A stretch of DNA of 64,000 nucleotides from Actinobaculum suis. Lineage in GTDB: Bacteria > Actinomycetota > Actinomycetes > Actinomycetales > Actinomycetaceae. Where the stretch lies: the NCBI RefSeq assembly GCF_900102025.1, contig NZ_FNAU01000011.1:1-64000 (forward strand), written 5' to 3'. Positions 5,841 through 47,345 of the stretch are shown in pieces (the stretch's first letter is position 1; each line of letters starts with the position of its first letter). Under the pieces are notes generated by a model. The model did not search any database, had not been told where the DNA came from, and saw only the letters and a program-made list of their open reading frames with translations. The translations under genes and the position numbers were made by a program.

Positions 5841-5967
5841 ACCAATTCCGCGGTTTGTGTTTTTGCAAATATCGCGGAATTAGCATTCGCAGGCACCAAT
5901 TCCGCGAAACTGTTCCGCCCCAAAACCGGCACCCAAACTTCATCACGGCAACCAATTCCGCGAAATC
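5841..5967. repeat. AATTCCGCG dispersed-element cluster
   Basis: Between the divergent gatC and PLD genes. ACCAATTCCGCGGTTTGTGT (5841-5860) faces ATATCGCGGAATTAG (5869-5883), giving a hairpin with AATTCCGCG/CGCGGAATT arms. Two more forward copies follow (about 5894-5910 and 5951-5967, ending CGAAA). This is the first cluster of an element family found across the whole window. Confidence 0.85.
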
Positions 5968-6124
5968 TGCGGCGGCTCCGGCGGCTCCGGAAATAATCCC
6001 CAAACATTCTCCAAACATCTTCGGTGCTTCGGAAATACCATGAGCCCAGCTCAAACTGCCCTTCGGGCGAAAATCCAGGCCCGCCGATGTGAGGCATCTG
6101 TAGGCACAGAAAGCCGGCGGCGTC

Positions 6125-6130
6125 TAAAGT
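6125..6130 (+). promoter_or_regulatory. -10 box of the PLD gene (leaderless)
   Basis: TAAAGT is followed by 7 nt and the ATG at 6138. This supports 6138 rather than the in-frame GTG at 6129 as the start. Confidence 0.5.
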
Positions 6131-6137
6131 GAAGCCC

Positions 6138-7385
6138 ATGGTCAAGCTAAACCCGCGAGCGCGGAAAGCTCTAAAGTGGGGCGCGATAGCCACGGCGGCA
6201 GCGCCAGTTATCGCTACCGGCGCTGTTGTAGCTATTGATGAAGCTCGTAAACGCCGCACGCCACCTACCGGTGAGTTTCCGCATTTGCCGCCGCAACCGG
6301 CAAACGTGGGCGAAAACGAGACCTTAATTTTCACTTACGGGCGCGATCTGTACGAAGCGATGCTGGCCGATATCGAAAAGGCCAAAGAATACGTGTACTT
6401 CGAAATGTTTATTTTGAAGGCAGACGCGTGGGGTTACCGTTTCCGAGAGGCTTTCCAGCGCGCGGCACGCCGCGGCGTACGCGTGCATGTGCTGCTAGAC
6501 ACCTGGGGAAACCTAAATCAAGATCCATGTTTCCGCCATCCCCCGGCGCAGAAAAATCTGCATTGGATGAACTTCCCGCTCGTGCGCACCGGAATCTTTA
6601 CTGGACGTTCGCGCGATAAGGGCCGTGATCACCGCAAGATTATGGTGGTTGATGGCCGCGTGGGATACGTGGGCGGATACAACATCGGCACAATTTACGG
6701 CACCAAGTGGCGTGATACGCATATGAGGATTGCCGGGCCCGGGGTGTGGGAGCTAGAAGCGGCATTCACGGAAATGTGGAACTCCTATCGCCAACGCAAA
6801 CACCCGCGTTTAGAAATCGAGCCGGGCCACAGATGGAATCCGGCGTTGCGGGCGGTGCATAACTCGCCCGCCCAAAATGTTTACCCCATAGCCGCGCTAT
6901 ACATTGACGCTCTAGCCAGGGCAAAGGATCGCGCGTGGATGACGATGGGCTATTTTATTCCGGACGATCCCATGCTCGATGCGCTTACTGGCGCTGCCCA
7001 GCGCGGTGTGGACGTGCGTATCCTCATCCCCCAATATTCAAACCATATTTATACAGATTGGGTGGGCCGGCCGCATTATGAGCGTCTTTTGGAATCCGGG
7101 GTGCGCATGTTCCTCTACCGAGAGGCGATGATTCACGCCAAAACGATGACGGTAGACGGACATTGGTCCACCATCGGCACCGCGAACATTGACCGCTTGT
7201 CCCTGCGCGGAAACTTCGAAATCAACATGTCGATCTTTTCCGACGATCTTGCGCGCGTGATGGAGAAACTCTTCCTGGTGGACCTCACAAACACCTTCGA
7301 ACTTACCCTCGAAGAATGGAACAAGCGCGGCACGCTCGCACGCGTAACCGAATCGATTCTCCGCCCTCTCGCCCCACTCCTCTAG
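6138..7385 (+). CDS. Phospholipase D-superfamily protein, cardiolipin synthase-like
   Basis: Probable phosphatidyltransferase that makes cardiolipin at the membrane. Two HKD motifs are present: RDHRKIMVVDG with downstream GGYNIG (about residue 165) and IHAKTMTVDG with TANIDRLS (about 335), the two half-sites of a PLD active site. One hydrophobic segment near residues 12-35 (GAIATAAAPVIATGAVVAI) anchors the N-terminus, so the enzyme is membrane-bound by a single helix rather than the two of classical Cls. The start at 6138 is chosen from the leaderless promoter geometry. It is divergent from gatC. The family also contains nucleases and other phosphatidyltransferases, so the substrate is inferred. 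Confidence 0.85.
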   Translation: MVKLNPRARKALKWGAIATAAAPVIATGAVVAIDEARKRRTPPTGEFPHLPPQPANVGENETLIFTYGRDLYEAMLADIEKAKEYVYFEMFILKADAWGYRFREAFQRAARRGVRVHVLLDTWGNLNQDPCFRHPPAQKNLHWMNFPLVRTGIFTGRSRDKGRDHRKIMVVDGRVGYVGGYNIGTIYGTKWRDTHMRIAGPGVWELEAAFTEMWNSYRQRKHPRLEIEPGHRWNPALRAVHNSPAQNVYPIAALYIDALARAKDRAWMTMGYFIPDDPMLDALTGAAQRGVDVRILIPQYSNHIYTDWVGRPHYERLLESGVRMFLYREAMIHAKTMTVDGHWSTIGTANIDRLSLRGNFEINMSIFSDDLARVMEKLFLVDLTNTFELTLEEWNKRGTLARVTESILRPLAPLL

Positions 7386-43333: not shown

Positions 43334-43418
43334 GGAGGATTCGCCTAGTGGCCTATGGCGCTCGCCTGGAACGCGGGTTGGGTTAACGCCCTCGGGGGTT
43401 CGAATCCCCCATCCTCCG
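43334..43418 (+). tRNA. tRNA-Ser (anticodon GGA)
   Basis: The acceptor arm GGAGGAT pairs with ATCCTCC and the discriminator is G. The D arm is followed by an anticodon stem CTCGC/GCGGG with loop CTGGAAC (anticodon GGA, serine). A long type II variable arm (about 43376-43393) and a T arm GGGGGTTCGAATCCCCC complete the 85-nt molecule. CCA is not encoded. Its 3' end with the following terminator is duplicated 3.8 kb downstream, so this tRNA is the insertion site of the island to its right. Confidence 0.95.
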
Positions 43419-43471
43419 CAGTAAGCCGCTCCTAGAATTTCTGGGAGCGGCTTTTTCATGCGGTTTACGGC
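43414..43471 (+). repeat. attL-like copy of 58-nt direct repeat
   Basis: Runs from CTCCGCA (3' end of tRNA-Ser) through the terminator to CATGCGGTTTACGGC. It matches 47187-47244 at about 54 of 58 positions by eye, with no gaps. Confidence 0.8.
43423..43456 (+). terminator. tRNA-Ser terminator
   Basis: AAGCCGCTCC (43423-43432) and GGAGCGGCTT (43444-43453) form a 10-bp stem whose last two T bases begin a run of five T (43452-43456). Confidence 0.85.
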
Positions 43472-43877
43472 GAGACAGCGCGGGAAACTTGGGTCAGTCA
43501 TCCAATTCGCGAATATGCTTCCATATTGCTCTATGCACTCCTGTGTACATAGTGAGGGATACGTCCAGGGACACACGCAAGGGATACAAAATTCGAACAC
43601 CCCTCCCACCAAAAGGTTATGACCCTATTTTTATTGGAGCGCCAGGCGGAGCAATGGTCCAAATATGGTTGCCAGCTAAGAACCTTACCCAGGCCTTAAC
43701 AAAGGCTATCGCACTATTAGAGCCCCGCGTGCCCATGGTCGGGCTATCAGCGTTGTCTAAAGCCATTGCTGACGCGGGCTAGCCCATGCCCACCAACAAG
43801 GGCTCAGGCCCCGATTTATGTTAATAAGACAAATCGATGTTTTACGTATAGAAGGCGTTCCCTTTGGTTTTGCGGCA

Positions 43878-43917
43878 AAAGTGCCGGCGAGGAGATGATT
43901 AACCTCGCCGGCACTTT
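43878..43917 (-). terminator. Terminator of the island's secreted-protein operon
   Basis: AAAGTGCCGGCGAGG (43878-43892) and CCTCGCCGGCACTTT (43903-43917) form a perfect 15-bp stem with a 10-nt loop. On the minus strand the stem ends in TTTT. It lies 80 nt after the 43997 stop codon. Confidence 0.75.
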
Positions 43918-43996: not shown

Positions 43997-44401
43997 CTAC
44001 TCAGTGGGAGTAGCTTCGGAGAGCAGCATCTTGGTGGTAGTGAAATGGGTCGCCCACGTTTTCCCGACCCCAAGTCTTACAGCCTCTTGTAAGTAATTCG
44101 AAACTACATCGAAGTGTCCGGTAGTGGGGTAGTGGATCCCGCGCATACCGTGCGATTCCGGGATCAGCAATTCTCCGCGTTCCCATTTGCCGCCGAAGGC
44201 TCGTCTCAATCCTTCACCCAAAAACATGGTGTATTTTTCTTGCACCCATGCCGATGCTGGATCTTGAGTTTGCAAGAATAGCTTCTCGCACTCGTGCAAA
44301 GAGCTCGTGGACCAGGGTGAATCGTGGTCCGCACCGGGGATTACGTACTTAAAATCTCCCGAGTCTATAAACGTTTGAGCTATGTTAGCGAACTGTTCCA
44401 T
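43997..44401 (-). CDS. Island protein of unknown function, possible immunity-type partner
   Basis: 134 residues, acidic to neutral, no signal peptide and no membrane segment, so probably cytoplasmic. Features: VIPGADHDSPWSTSSLHECEKLF, MFLGEGLRRAFGGKWERGELLIP, GIHYPTTGHFDVVSNYLQEAV. I recognise no family with certainty; the LGEGLRRAFGGKW pattern resembles small immunity or SMI1-like proteins, but this is only an impression. It begins one codon after the stop of the secreted protein gene, with CGAGG of that gene's end as ribosome site, so the two products are made together. The tight pairing with a secreted protein is why an immunity or chaperone role is considered. Confidence 0.6.
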   Translation of the reverse strand: MEQFANIAQTFIDSGDFKYVIPGADHDSPWSTSSLHECEKLFLQTQDPASAWVQEKYTMFLGEGLRRAFGGKWERGELLIPESHGMRGIHYPTTGHFDVVSNYLQEAVRLGVGKTWATHFTTTKMLLSEATPTE

Positions 44402-44404
44402 GTT

Positions 44405-44833
44405 TTACCTCGTTAGGACCCACACCTTGCCCCTTTTTCTGCACTTTAGCTTAGGCTTGTCAGGGAACTGGTTATTGTAAAAGGCACGTGCAGCCTCGCA
44501 GGCGGGCTTTGAAAGAAGAACTCTAAATACTGCACCCCAGGCAAAATTAGGCTGTACACGAGATGATTCTAGGTCAAATCTTTCGCCATGATGTAAGCTG
44601 CCTGGTTCATGTACGGGGTACAGCTTAGCGAATTCGAGAAGAAGATCATCGCTTTGAGAGCTTATGGCGTTCGAAACGATTGGCGAAGGTTGCGATTCCA
44701 CCTCTATGTGAGCGTCGGTAGACGCAACAGCGGGGGTGATATTCACGGTGGTGGCAAATAGCGCAGATGCGACTGCAGTAGCTACCGAGGCTTTCGTTAA
44801 TTTTCTTTTCATATCCAGAATGTTCCTTGCCAT
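44405..44833 (-). CDS. Secreted small cationic protein of the island
   Basis: 142 residues with an N-terminal signal peptide: basic start (MKRKLTK), hydrophobic core (ASVATAVASALFATTVNI) and a likely cleavage after TPAVAS. The mature part (about 100 residues) begins acidic (HIEVESQPSP) and ends strongly basic (KPKLKCRKRGKVWVLTR), with two cysteines (SKPACEAAR and KLKCRKR) that may form one disulfide. No known domain. The ATG at 44833 has GGAG 7 nt upstream; the ATG at 44812 is an alternative and keeps the whole signal. It is followed directly by the 43997 gene and preceded by a two-component system, an arrangement familiar from regulated bacteriocin or toxin loci. That function is inference. 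Confidence 0.65.
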   Translation of the reverse strand: MARNILDMKRKLTKASVATAVASALFATTVNITPAVASTDAHIEVESQPSPIVSNAISSQSDDLLLEFAKLYPVHEPGSLHHGERFDLESSRVQPNFAWGAVFRVLLSKPACEAARAFYNNQFPDKPKLKCRKRGKVWVLTR

Positions 44834-45043
44834 CGTGCCGCTCCTACGGCGGCTCGGTTGCGTTTGTGTATCTAACGTTACGGCCGGAATTATCCGAGCG
44901 ATATAGATGTTTTATAGAGTCTCATACCGATTTTCTTCGGTACGGAAAAGTGCCTGGCGGGCGGGTGCGGAGCCGACGATGTAAATAAAAAGGCTAGGGG
45001 GCCGGACTAAGGGGAGCTCGTGCATCTACTTTCTGCTTGTGTA
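44834..45043 (-). promoter_or_regulatory. Promoter region of the secreted-protein operon
   Basis: AT-rich 210-nt gap. TACCGA (about 44927) and TCGGTA (about 44937) form a small hairpin that could end the upstream regulator transcript. TAGATA near 44868 and TATAAA near 44911 (minus strand) are -10-like. A binding site for the island's response regulator would be expected here, but I cannot identify one. Confidence 0.35.
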
Positions 45044-45730
45044 CTACTTGTGTAATCCAGCCTTCAAAGCGGTCACTACCAGTTCGACGCGCGTATTACA
45101 ACTCATATGCGCAAGGATGTCGGAAACGTATGAACGTACAGTTGTTTCCTTGAGATTTAGCCGGCGCGCAATCGTCTTATTAGTGGCTGCTTCCAAAAGG
45201 AGATTGAAGGTGGGCTGCAATCGAGCCGGTAAGGACTGCACGGCGGCAATGAAATCGGCATATTTTCCCTGGCTAACGTGTGACTGAAAATACGCTTCGG
45301 CTAAGATTTCTGTGGGCCGCGCAGACATTATTTTTTCGCCCTTATATGCTTTTCTAATGGCCTGCACAAGATCTGGTATTAGAACGTCTTTCGTTAGGAA
45401 GCCGCGTACGCCCGCTCCGATAGACTGGGCAAGAGATTCTTCCTGATGAAAAGCTGTGAGCATAATGATCGCGATATTCGGATATTGAAAACTCACTTCT
45501 CGAGCAGTCTCAACTCCGTCTTTTATGGGCATATCAACGTCTAAGAGTAATACGTCTACGCTTTGCGTACATAAAAGGCGGAGGGCTTCTGCGCCATCCT
45601 GCGCCACCCAGGCGATCTCAATACCTTCCTCGTGTGCCAAGAGTCGTTGCAAACCCTCACGCATGATGTGGTCATCGTCGGCGATCGCAATTTTTAAAGT
45701 AATCTTTTCTTGTTTCGCTTCGACATTCAT
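45044..45730 (-). CDS. NarL/LuxR-family response regulator of the island
   Basis: 228-residue regulator. Receiver domain: IAIADDDHIMREGLQRLL with the acidic cluster, phosphoacceptor Asp in VLLLDVDMPIKDG, Thr in IIMLTAFHQEES and Lys in GFLTKDVLIPDL. The C-terminal HTH (about 165-225) has LLLEAATNKTIARRLNLKETTVRSYVSDILAHM. It overlaps the kinase gene by 4 nt (ATGA), a classic coupled pair. It lacks the usual LTxRE start of the LuxR HTH (here LPARLQPTFNLLLEAA), so it is rather diverged. The secreted-protein operon immediately downstream is its most likely target. Confidence 0.9.
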   Translation of the reverse strand: MNVEAKQEKITLKIAIADDDHIMREGLQRLLAHEEGIEIAWVAQDGAEALRLLCTQSVDVLLLDVDMPIKDGVETAREVSFQYPNIAIIMLTAFHQEESLAQSIGAGVRGFLTKDVLIPDLVQAIRKAYKGEKIMSARPTEILAEAYFQSHVSQGKYADFIAAVQSLPARLQPTFNLLLEAATNKTIARRLNLKETTVRSYVSDILAHMSCNTRVELVVTALKAGLHK

Positions 45731-46917
45731 TGTGGCTCCACATTCCTAAGTATCATTTTCCTAAGCGAAATGCTGCATGGCTGCCAGTTGTTTGGCAAGC
45801 CAGTTTTCACGGTATTCTCTGCGGAGATGGGCAGAGTTATGTAGGTGAGCCATTTCTCTCCGGGGAGTGCTCCCGCTTCTAATGTTCCACCTTGCGATTC
45901 CACTAGTTCCCGCAAATTACTCAAACCGAAACCACTTGTTACCCCGGGCGCGGGCTTACCGTCCGCCACGTCATTGCTGATCGAGAGAATAAGTTCTCTA
46001 GAAACAGGATGGAACTTTATCACGAGGTCCGCTTTGGAATGCTTAGGAGCATATTTCAGAATATTGGAGCCGCACTCCCTTAGTACAAGGATGCCCCCTT
46101 TTAATTGTGCAGGGCTGATTTTATTCTCGATATTCTCGGGCAGCGTGTATTTGAGGGTGATTTTACGCGTCGCGAGCATTTTCTGGATTTGCCTTACTAC
46201 CCGGTTAATATTTTTTTCGGATGGAGGAGAAGAAGCGTGTTGGGCTGAAATGATGGATCGCACTCGGCGTGAAGCGTGAGTTGCGATATTCCCCAGAGCC
46301 TCCATTCTCGGAGCTGTTTCCGGGTGTTCCCGCGCGATATCTTGCGTCAGGAGAATTATGTGGGCGAGGTCTTTGGCCGTGTTGTCATGCAGTTCTTGGA
46401 TTAGTTCTCGGGTATTTTGTGCGTTTGCTTCGCGAGCGTTTTCGAGTTCCTCTTCTGCACTGAGGAGCCGCGCGCTTTGCCATCGCAGCAATAATCCGAT
46501 AGATACAGCAAGCAGCCCAAGAAAAACGGAGATAAACATCTGCGCTGTTGGGTTAGAAGTGAGCAGTAACTTCGTTACCTCTACAGTCAACAAGAGAATC
46601 GCAGCACCTAGCATCCAAGCACGCACTATCCATATGATAATGACGAGATAAACACCTAAGGGAAGCATTCCTGGTTCGGACGGAGTGCTCAGCTTCAGGT
46701 GCAGTACGCATAAGCAAAAAGTAATCTCGAACAGTATTGAGCGTGAGGCCAAGGCCAGCAGTAGGGCAAGGGTGATCTCAATGCCAGCCTGTACACGGGA
46801 AAGGTCAACCAGGCCGAGGATGTGTCCATATATGTCAAAACCGATCAGCAATACGGCACCTACGGCATAGATTGGCGCATATCGCGTCCGGGTTAGCTTT
46901 GGTAACCACTCACTCAT
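45727..46917 (-). CDS. Membrane sensor histidine kinase of the island
   Basis: About 396 residues. Five or so hydrophobic helices (about 10-165) with short loops form the sensor, a topology used for peptide or membrane-stress sensing. Then a coiled-coil linker (SAEEELENAREANAQNTREL), the phosphoacceptor helix IQELHDNTAKDLAHIILL (HisKA_3-like, His in ELHDN) and a HATPase_c domain with RECGSNILKYAPKHSKADLVI (N box) and SGFGLSNLRELVESQGG (G box). The ATG at 46917 lies 6 nt after CATACT (46924-46929), so leaderless. The frame is open to 46995, but that part is not needed by the family. The ligand is unknown; the secreted product of the same island is one candidate. Confidence 0.85.
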   Translation of the reverse strand: MSEWLPKLTRTRYAPIYAVGAVLLIGFDIYGHILGLVDLSRVQAGIEITLALLLALASRSILFEITFCLCVLHLKLSTPSEPGMLPLGVYLVIIIWIVRAWMLGAAILLLTVEVTKLLLTSNPTAQMFISVFLGLLAVSIGLLLRWQSARLLSAEEELENAREANAQNTRELIQELHDNTAKDLAHIILLTQDIAREHPETAPRMEALGNIATHASRRVRSIISAQHASSPPSEKNINRVVRQIQKMLATRKITLKYTLPENIENKISPAQLKGGILVLRECGSNILKYAPKHSKADLVIKFHPVSRELILSISNDVADGKPAPGVTSGFGLSNLRELVESQGGTLEAGALPGEKWLTYITLPISAENTVKTGLPNNWQPCSISLRKMILRNVEPQ

Positions 46918-47036
46918 GGAGTCAGTATGACATTCGTGCAGTTGGAGAGTCAGGCGGTCCACTATGGAAGATGCTGTCCAGAGCGGGCGAGTCATTAGAG
47001 AAGCCTTTCGGTAACGGAGGTGGATGCCGTATTCTT

Positions 47037-47076: not shown

Positions 47077-47186
47077 CAGGCAGCCGCCGCGGGAGGCCGC
47101 GAAATCACCGGAGGAACTGTTTCGATCTGCACGTCCAAAAGATTGCGCACGATTCGTCGATCGGGGTGCTCAGTTCACCTCTTATA

Positions 47187-47244
47187 CTCCGCAGTCAGCC
47201 GCTCCTTGATTTCCTGGGAGCGGCTTTTTCATGCGGTTTACGGC
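47187..47244 (+). repeat. attR-like copy of 58-nt direct repeat
   Basis: CTCCGCAGTCAGCCGCTCC ... GGGAGCGGCTTTTTCATGCG, the second copy of the tRNA-Ser 3' end and terminator. It keeps a working hairpin (47197-47205 with 47217-47225, then T5). Only the last bases of the tRNA are present. Confidence 0.8.
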
Positions 47245-47249
47245 CATTC

Positions 47250-47345
47250 CCCCACTTCCCGTATTCGGTTCCCTGCTTCCCGCAGCCATTCCCCGCTTCC
47301 CGCAGCTAGTCTCCACTTCCCGTATTCGGTTCCTCGCTCCCAGTA
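47250..47345. repeat. Repeat crossing the COG0523 stop codon
   Basis: CCACTTCCCGTATTCGGTTCC occurs near 47258 and 47311, one base apart from identical in context, with CCCGCTTCCCGCAGC units between. The array spans the stop codon at 47306 and encodes the last residues (SEEPNTGSGD) of the protein. Confidence 0.7.

Follow-up and report, generated by a model that had tools for sequence, protein, structure and literature searches.

The stretch of DNA analysed here (the window) comprises 64,000 nucleotides (nt) of the Actinobaculum suis genome (contig NZ_FNAU01000011.1, positions 1 to 64,000) and carries a small genomic island that we discuss as a candidate bacteriocin-immunity locus. Four open reading frames (ORFs), all found on the minus strand, make up the island. 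They encode a polytopic sensor histidine kinase (45727-46995), a NarL/LuxR-type response regulator (45044-45730), a 142-amino-acid (aa) secreted precursor (44405-44833) and a soluble acidic 134-aa partner (43997-44401); the last two genes are called S and P. The kinase and regulator genes share 4 nt (45727-45730), a gap of 210 bp separating the regulator from S would hold the S/P promoter, and P starts 3 nt past the S stop. An intrinsic terminator of the S-P unit follows on the same strand (43878-43917, 17-bp stem, -33.1 kcal/mol, z -8.4), and none of 200 shuffled sequences produced an equally good one. An earlier note on this DNA had described this co-directional arrangement, the overlap, the one-codon spacing and the dedicated terminator, and in all of these the present analysis agrees with it. 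It had also recognized the polytopic kinase; the gene stands, and the start placed at 46917 is an internal ATG of an ORF that reaches 46995 and whose true start is ambiguous.

The borders of the island are defined by a tRNA gene and a repeat, both additions to the earlier description. The tRNA-Ser(GGA) gene identified by ARAGORN (43334-43419, plus strand) is the integration site. Its last 9 nt and its terminator form the left att-like direct repeat (43411-43471), and the right copy of this 61-nt sequence (47184-47244, likewise on the plus strand) is 92% identical to it. The element thus delimited measures 3.7 kb, has att-like ends and no integrase, and its GC content is about 49% between the repeats versus about 59% outside. 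The genus-mate G001 has the same tRNA-Ser gene beside the same patatin-like gene and lacks the island (genomes, contigs and loci are designated by G, C and L numbers); the CobW neighbour was unusable for mapping the empty site, since the relatives tested lack it. A 97-aa open frame on the plus strand at the island's left end (43489-43782; ...GYDPIFIGAPGGAMVQIWLPAKNLTQALTKAIALLEPR...) is perhaps a mobile-element remnant, and short direct repeats of CCACTTCCCGTATTCGG lie just beyond the right end (47252-47341).

The S precursor is predicted to consist of a signal peptide, an acidic pro-region (net charge -7 in the window and -8 in G231) and a cationic C-terminal domain of 45 aa (44408-44542, minus strand; charge +9), the proposed active peptide. 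The signal peptide and the basic tail with two cysteines, here found 19 residues apart, had been noticed before. In a structure model only the C-domain is confident, with a predicted local distance difference test (pLDDT) score of about 87-94 over residues 111-142, and the predicted fold is a helix (109-122) followed by a hairpin (strands 130-134 and 137-141). The C-domain is also the best-conserved part of S, with 24 invariant positions among three copies. Between the window and G231 it shows 0.15 nonsynonymous substitutions per site (dN) and about 2.1 synonymous ones (dS), a dN/dS ratio of about 0.07; outside this domain S diverges. P has an isoelectric point of 5.45 (4.1-6.2 among homologues), no transmembrane segment and an AlphaFold model of moderate confidence (pLDDT 78.7). 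Its homologues are 32-53% identical, and relative to G231 its dN is 0.35, with synonymous sites saturated. Homologous ORFs support the coding status of both genes.

The statement of the earlier note that neither small protein belongs to a known family is borne out, since S and P have no meaningful match in Pfam, NCBIfam, PHROGs or PADLOC; nor did S match a housekeeping envelope family, which is the kind of match that the note had named as speaking against its proposal. Sequence searches of solved structures with S and P gave nothing usable. Foldseek produced nothing significant for the S model, nor for the P model when run against the PDB and viral libraries. A plasmid search returned no match. 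Among 50,697 phage genomes S had no match and P no convincing one, and a contig scan with P alone as query found nothing, the P alignment recovering the G231 record only. Assignments of S to DUF4179 (E 0.004) or RsiV (E 0.31) were rejected because the matches span the signal-peptide region, and those of P to MukF_C or a phage tail protein (E 0.06-1) were dismissed as chance.

The distribution of the two genes is informative. A search of 213 family genomes located S in four of them and P in those same four, adjacent every time; further searches at the order and class levels added P in G514, G296, G517 and G815. P homologues occur mostly with S, as the co-occurrence check suggested by the earlier note required: S or a remnant of it lies directly upstream of P in seven of nine P loci, the exceptions being G514 and G517, where P stands alone. 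Both genes are intact in the window and in G231. On contig C34 of the window genome S is reduced to a 39-aa C-terminal frame and P is open, in G296 S is frameshifted and P again open, and in G233, G234 and G815 both are broken. Loss of S while P survives is the history expected of a toxin and its immunity protein. A bacteriocin-immunity pair would be recognized by adjacency, co-inheritance and an immunity gene that outlasts the toxin gene, and at the sequence level all three were found for S and P. The count leaves out G135, whose match to S was weak (E 0.006) and contains one stop. The G231 contig (L021, FQLW01000005.1) is recorded under the title Tissierella sp. Marseille-P2918, although its genome clusters with this actinobacterial family; that title may be erroneous. 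At locus L015 a decayed S/P pair is closely preceded by genes for a different secreted protein and an overlapping small partner of cytoplasmic type (6010-6546 and 6528-6884); an operator-like site lies there at 5947.

Judged from their sequences, the other two genes form a NarL-type two-component system. The regulator matches the Pfam families Response_reg (6e-26) and GerE (4e-9). The kinase matches histidine-kinase models below threshold only, and its identification is supported by conserved boxes (H-box ELHDNTAKDLAH, N-box VLRECGSNILKYAP and a GFGLSNLRE box) and by its relatives, the closest of which in the family are 34-41% identical. The window kinase and a second kinase of the same genome, on contig C33, group together as sisters (100/99) and branch basally to the clade (84/99) with the peptide and operator described below, whose kinases belong to other genera. 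This second kinase/regulator pair (L052 456-2828) is followed by a gene for an 81-aa membrane protein, close to the contig end.

Thirty-three loci of related kinases were examined. Directly upstream of the kinase, 20 of them have a short ORF ending in C-x8-C, compared with 0.9% of the ORFs of the same size elsewhere in those loci; L079 and L083 also carry one where the kinase start was over-called, giving 20-22 of 33 in all. These secreted peptides (L053 8486-8698, L055 8770-8985, L057 5806-6015, L061 6802-7011 and others) are about 56-87 aa long and share an invariant motif, such as ICKLFPNLRGCEKYRPR; they likely represent an undescribed pheromone family. No such gene is present in the window upstream of the kinase, nor upstream of the C33 sister kinase, and none was recognized in the window genome, a draft 95.5% complete, in a search whose positive controls were members of the alignment. 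Therefore, the inducer of the window kinase may be a peptide of other cells, S itself or something else.

The genes near the related kinases include some for secreted proteins with bacteriocin-like C-termini, often together with a small membrane protein. Sub-threshold matches to the NCBIfam profile EntV_fam were obtained for such proteins at L060 (6440-7033, 2e-12) and L074 (8077-8631, 3e-6), and for a gene of G233 (L016 6429-7220, 9e-8) whose neighbour is the S/P remnant instead of a kinase and behind which lies a small membrane-protein frame. Peptidase-inhibitor family I36 proteins lie beside the related kinases of L064 (8105-8518) and L084 (7643-8074), so that this class of regulon is possibly not limited to bacteriocins. 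Two further candidates (L071 7910-8266 and L076 5232-5528), considered as lactococcin 972 relatives, were not confirmed by Pfam or NCBIfam and are not claimed. L053 (11738-13449) and L054 (7700-9976) carry tandem paralogues of about 173-179 aa that have one hydrophobic N-terminal segment and end in VIDAQPEPLINLQWIYDWVNKDRFN.

A palindrome, ATACCGAC-N4-GTCGGTAT, precedes peptide and bacteriocin-like genes in the related loci (L053 8765/8788, L054 7386/7409, L057 5724, L059 5036/8356, L061 6717, L062 7754/7777 and L071 5414/7797/7821), sometimes in tandem with a spacing of 23-24 bp. The S/P promoter of the window contains a candidate operator of this kind, ATACCGATTTTCTTCGGTAC (44924-44943), which differs from the palindrome by one change per half-site beside the centre and by T to C at the last base, and which is proposed as the site of the regulator. 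That regulator is 55% identical to the one of L053 and its recognition helix is near-identical. The 12-base core TACCGA-N6-TCGGTA has its single exact occurrence in the 2.2-Mb genome at this position. With a weight matrix built from the relatives, the site scores 15.1 bits and the next one in the window 6.2. Since the best scores in 100 random 64-kb sequences were 9.5 bits on average and as high as 18.5, the score alone is not decisive; the position in the 210-bp gap is, and from base counts we estimate the chance of finding the exact core there at about 1e-5. Operator-like sites also occur just downstream of the C33 regulator (L052 895, 15.1 bits) and, in G234, before the other secreted gene of the S/P cluster (13.0 bits). 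The S/P promoter of the window thus appears to carry the operator of the related peptide regulon.

Taken together, these observations make it probable, in our judgment, that the island represents an undescribed family of regulated bacteriocin-immunity cassettes, killing and immunity being what we infer from the genes and their history. S would be exported by the Sec pathway with removal of its signal peptide, and its acidic pro-region would probably be cleaved to release a cationic alpha-beta-beta peptide of about 45 residues with one disulfide (Cys112-Cys131) that would harm related bacteria. P would be translated directly after S from a shared message, stay in the cytoplasm and protect the producer. 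The kinase would sense an outside signal and phosphorylate the regulator, whose binding to the palindrome at 44924-44943 would switch on S and P together. The likeness to sensor-controlled bacteriocin/immunity loci, already pointed out in the earlier note, gains support from the context of the kinase clade and from the operator-like site in the S/P promoter. Mobility, seen in the tRNA island and in a prophage site in G231, also favours the cassette.

Several observations weigh on the other side. S itself matches no known bacteriocin, the family has yielded intact S-P pairs from two genomes only, and the neighbouring proteins match EntV_fam below its curated cut-off (130 bits). The small proteins encoded next to the EntV-like genes are membrane proteins, unlike the soluble P. 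A sequencing error could account for the frameshift in G296, which has a G-rich run close to it. G415 and G537, whose loci are near-identical, have an intact relative of S with P undetected and an ATP-binding cassette (ABC) exporter nearby (L050 8021-8323, L051 7400-7702). A phage-borne location, finally, also suits cargo that is not a toxin.

In a second reading, phages carry S and P for a different function, for instance superinfection exclusion or modification of the host envelope, and their pairing with the sensor genes in the window is secondary. In G231 the pair sits between the large terminase and portal genes, two viral contigs of IMG/VR contain it, a small terminase gene adjoins the copy in G233 and an apparent portal remnant follows the one in G234. 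However, the operator-like site of the window copy corresponds to that copy's own regulator, the G233 pair adjoins the EntV-like gene, the G234 pair adjoins a second secreted/cytoplasmic pair and the phage genomes searched offered no match to S and no convincing one to P, so that we hold such a role to be improbable. An inhibitory function, S being a secreted inhibitor of a protease or another enzyme rather than a killer and P its chaperone or regulator, is suggested by the I36 proteins beside two related kinases; S matches no inhibitor family and a dedicated soluble partner that outlasts it is not expected of inhibitors, which makes this reading very improbable.

S could also be mainly a signal, its processed C-domain acting as the pheromone of the island kinase, P controlling production or reception and any antibacterial action being secondary. 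The window kinase and its C33 sister lack a C-x8-C peptide, so another inducer is needed, and a secreted protein with two cysteines whose own promoter holds an operator-like site could close a positive loop. Yet in G231, G233, G234 and C34 no such kinase adjoins S/P, the C-domain exceeds the C-x8-C peptides in length and does not resemble them, and an orphan acidic P fits immunity better. A signalling role is moreover compatible with killing, as in nisin-type loops, and as the main function of S we consider it unlikely.

Beyond the cassette itself, the related loci suggest a wider scheme, for which we see an even chance: an undescribed quorum-sensing regulon of the Actinomycetaceae, in which a Sec-exported C-x8-C peptide and its polytopic kinase would act through a NarL-type regulator and a fixed palindromic operator to drive changing secreted bacteriocin-immunity cassettes. 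The window island would be a mobile version that retains kinase, regulator, operator and cassette but not the peptide gene, eavesdropping on other cells or self-induced by S. No description of this kinase/peptide/operator set was found in the open-licence literature. The regulatory side is the more surprising part and may matter more than S/P, as it would open the signal, the receptor and the binding site of bacteriocin control in the Actinomycetaceae to testing. As for S and P, their position outside the four databases searched means that the bacteriocin/immunity family, if real, would be new, and the proposed 45-aa active part is short enough for synthesis and test.

Among known systems, the closest parallel is EntV (enterocin O16, NF058576) of Enterococcus faecalis, which is controlled by the Fsr quorum-sensing system and is exported through Sec as a precursor, its C-terminal portion with a single disulfide being cleaved off as the active form (PMC6606811). 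The predicted layout of S is alike, with a Sec precursor, a pro-region and a one-disulfide C-terminal part. Like EntV, S would be under two-component control, and EntV-like genes occur beside relatives of the kinase and beside an S/P remnant. The parallel in architecture would support the bacteriocin interpretation. S differs in having no match to the EntV_fam profile, in a C-domain of 45 aa with a predicted alpha-beta-beta fold as against 68 aa for EntV, in a dedicated soluble partner gene and in a NarL-type regulator with a different operator.

The class II bacteriocin loci controlled by peptide pheromones (blp, plantaricin, sakacin) likewise bring together a kinase, a regulator, a promoter repeat and bacteriocin/immunity genes. 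The island departs from them by a Sec signal peptide where those have a double-glycine leader, by a NarL-type instead of a LytTR regulator, and by the absence of a dedicated (C39) ABC exporter from the island and of a pheromone gene from the window locus. Actifensin and actinomycesin of Actinomyces (PMC9317813, PMC8819291) are bacterial defensins, small disulfide peptides of actinomycetes in which a helix precedes a beta hairpin, as predicted for S. Nonetheless, no sequence relation to S was found, the Foldseek resemblance of S to plant defensins is weak and non-significant (E 3), and S has a long acidic pro-region and a partner gene. With its two cysteines S could form one disulfide compared with three in these peptides, so the three-disulfide pattern of cysteine-stabilized alpha-beta defensins does not apply.

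Polymorphic toxin/immunity modules share with S/P the succession of a toxin-like gene and a small soluble immunity-like gene, as well as orphan immunity genes left after toxin loss, but S is a 142-aa precursor with no large delivery module. S therefore lies outside EntV_fam, the three-disulfide defensins and the double-glycine class II bacteriocins. By analogy, the S/P island may nevertheless work like EntV/Fsr and other regulated bacteriocin loci.

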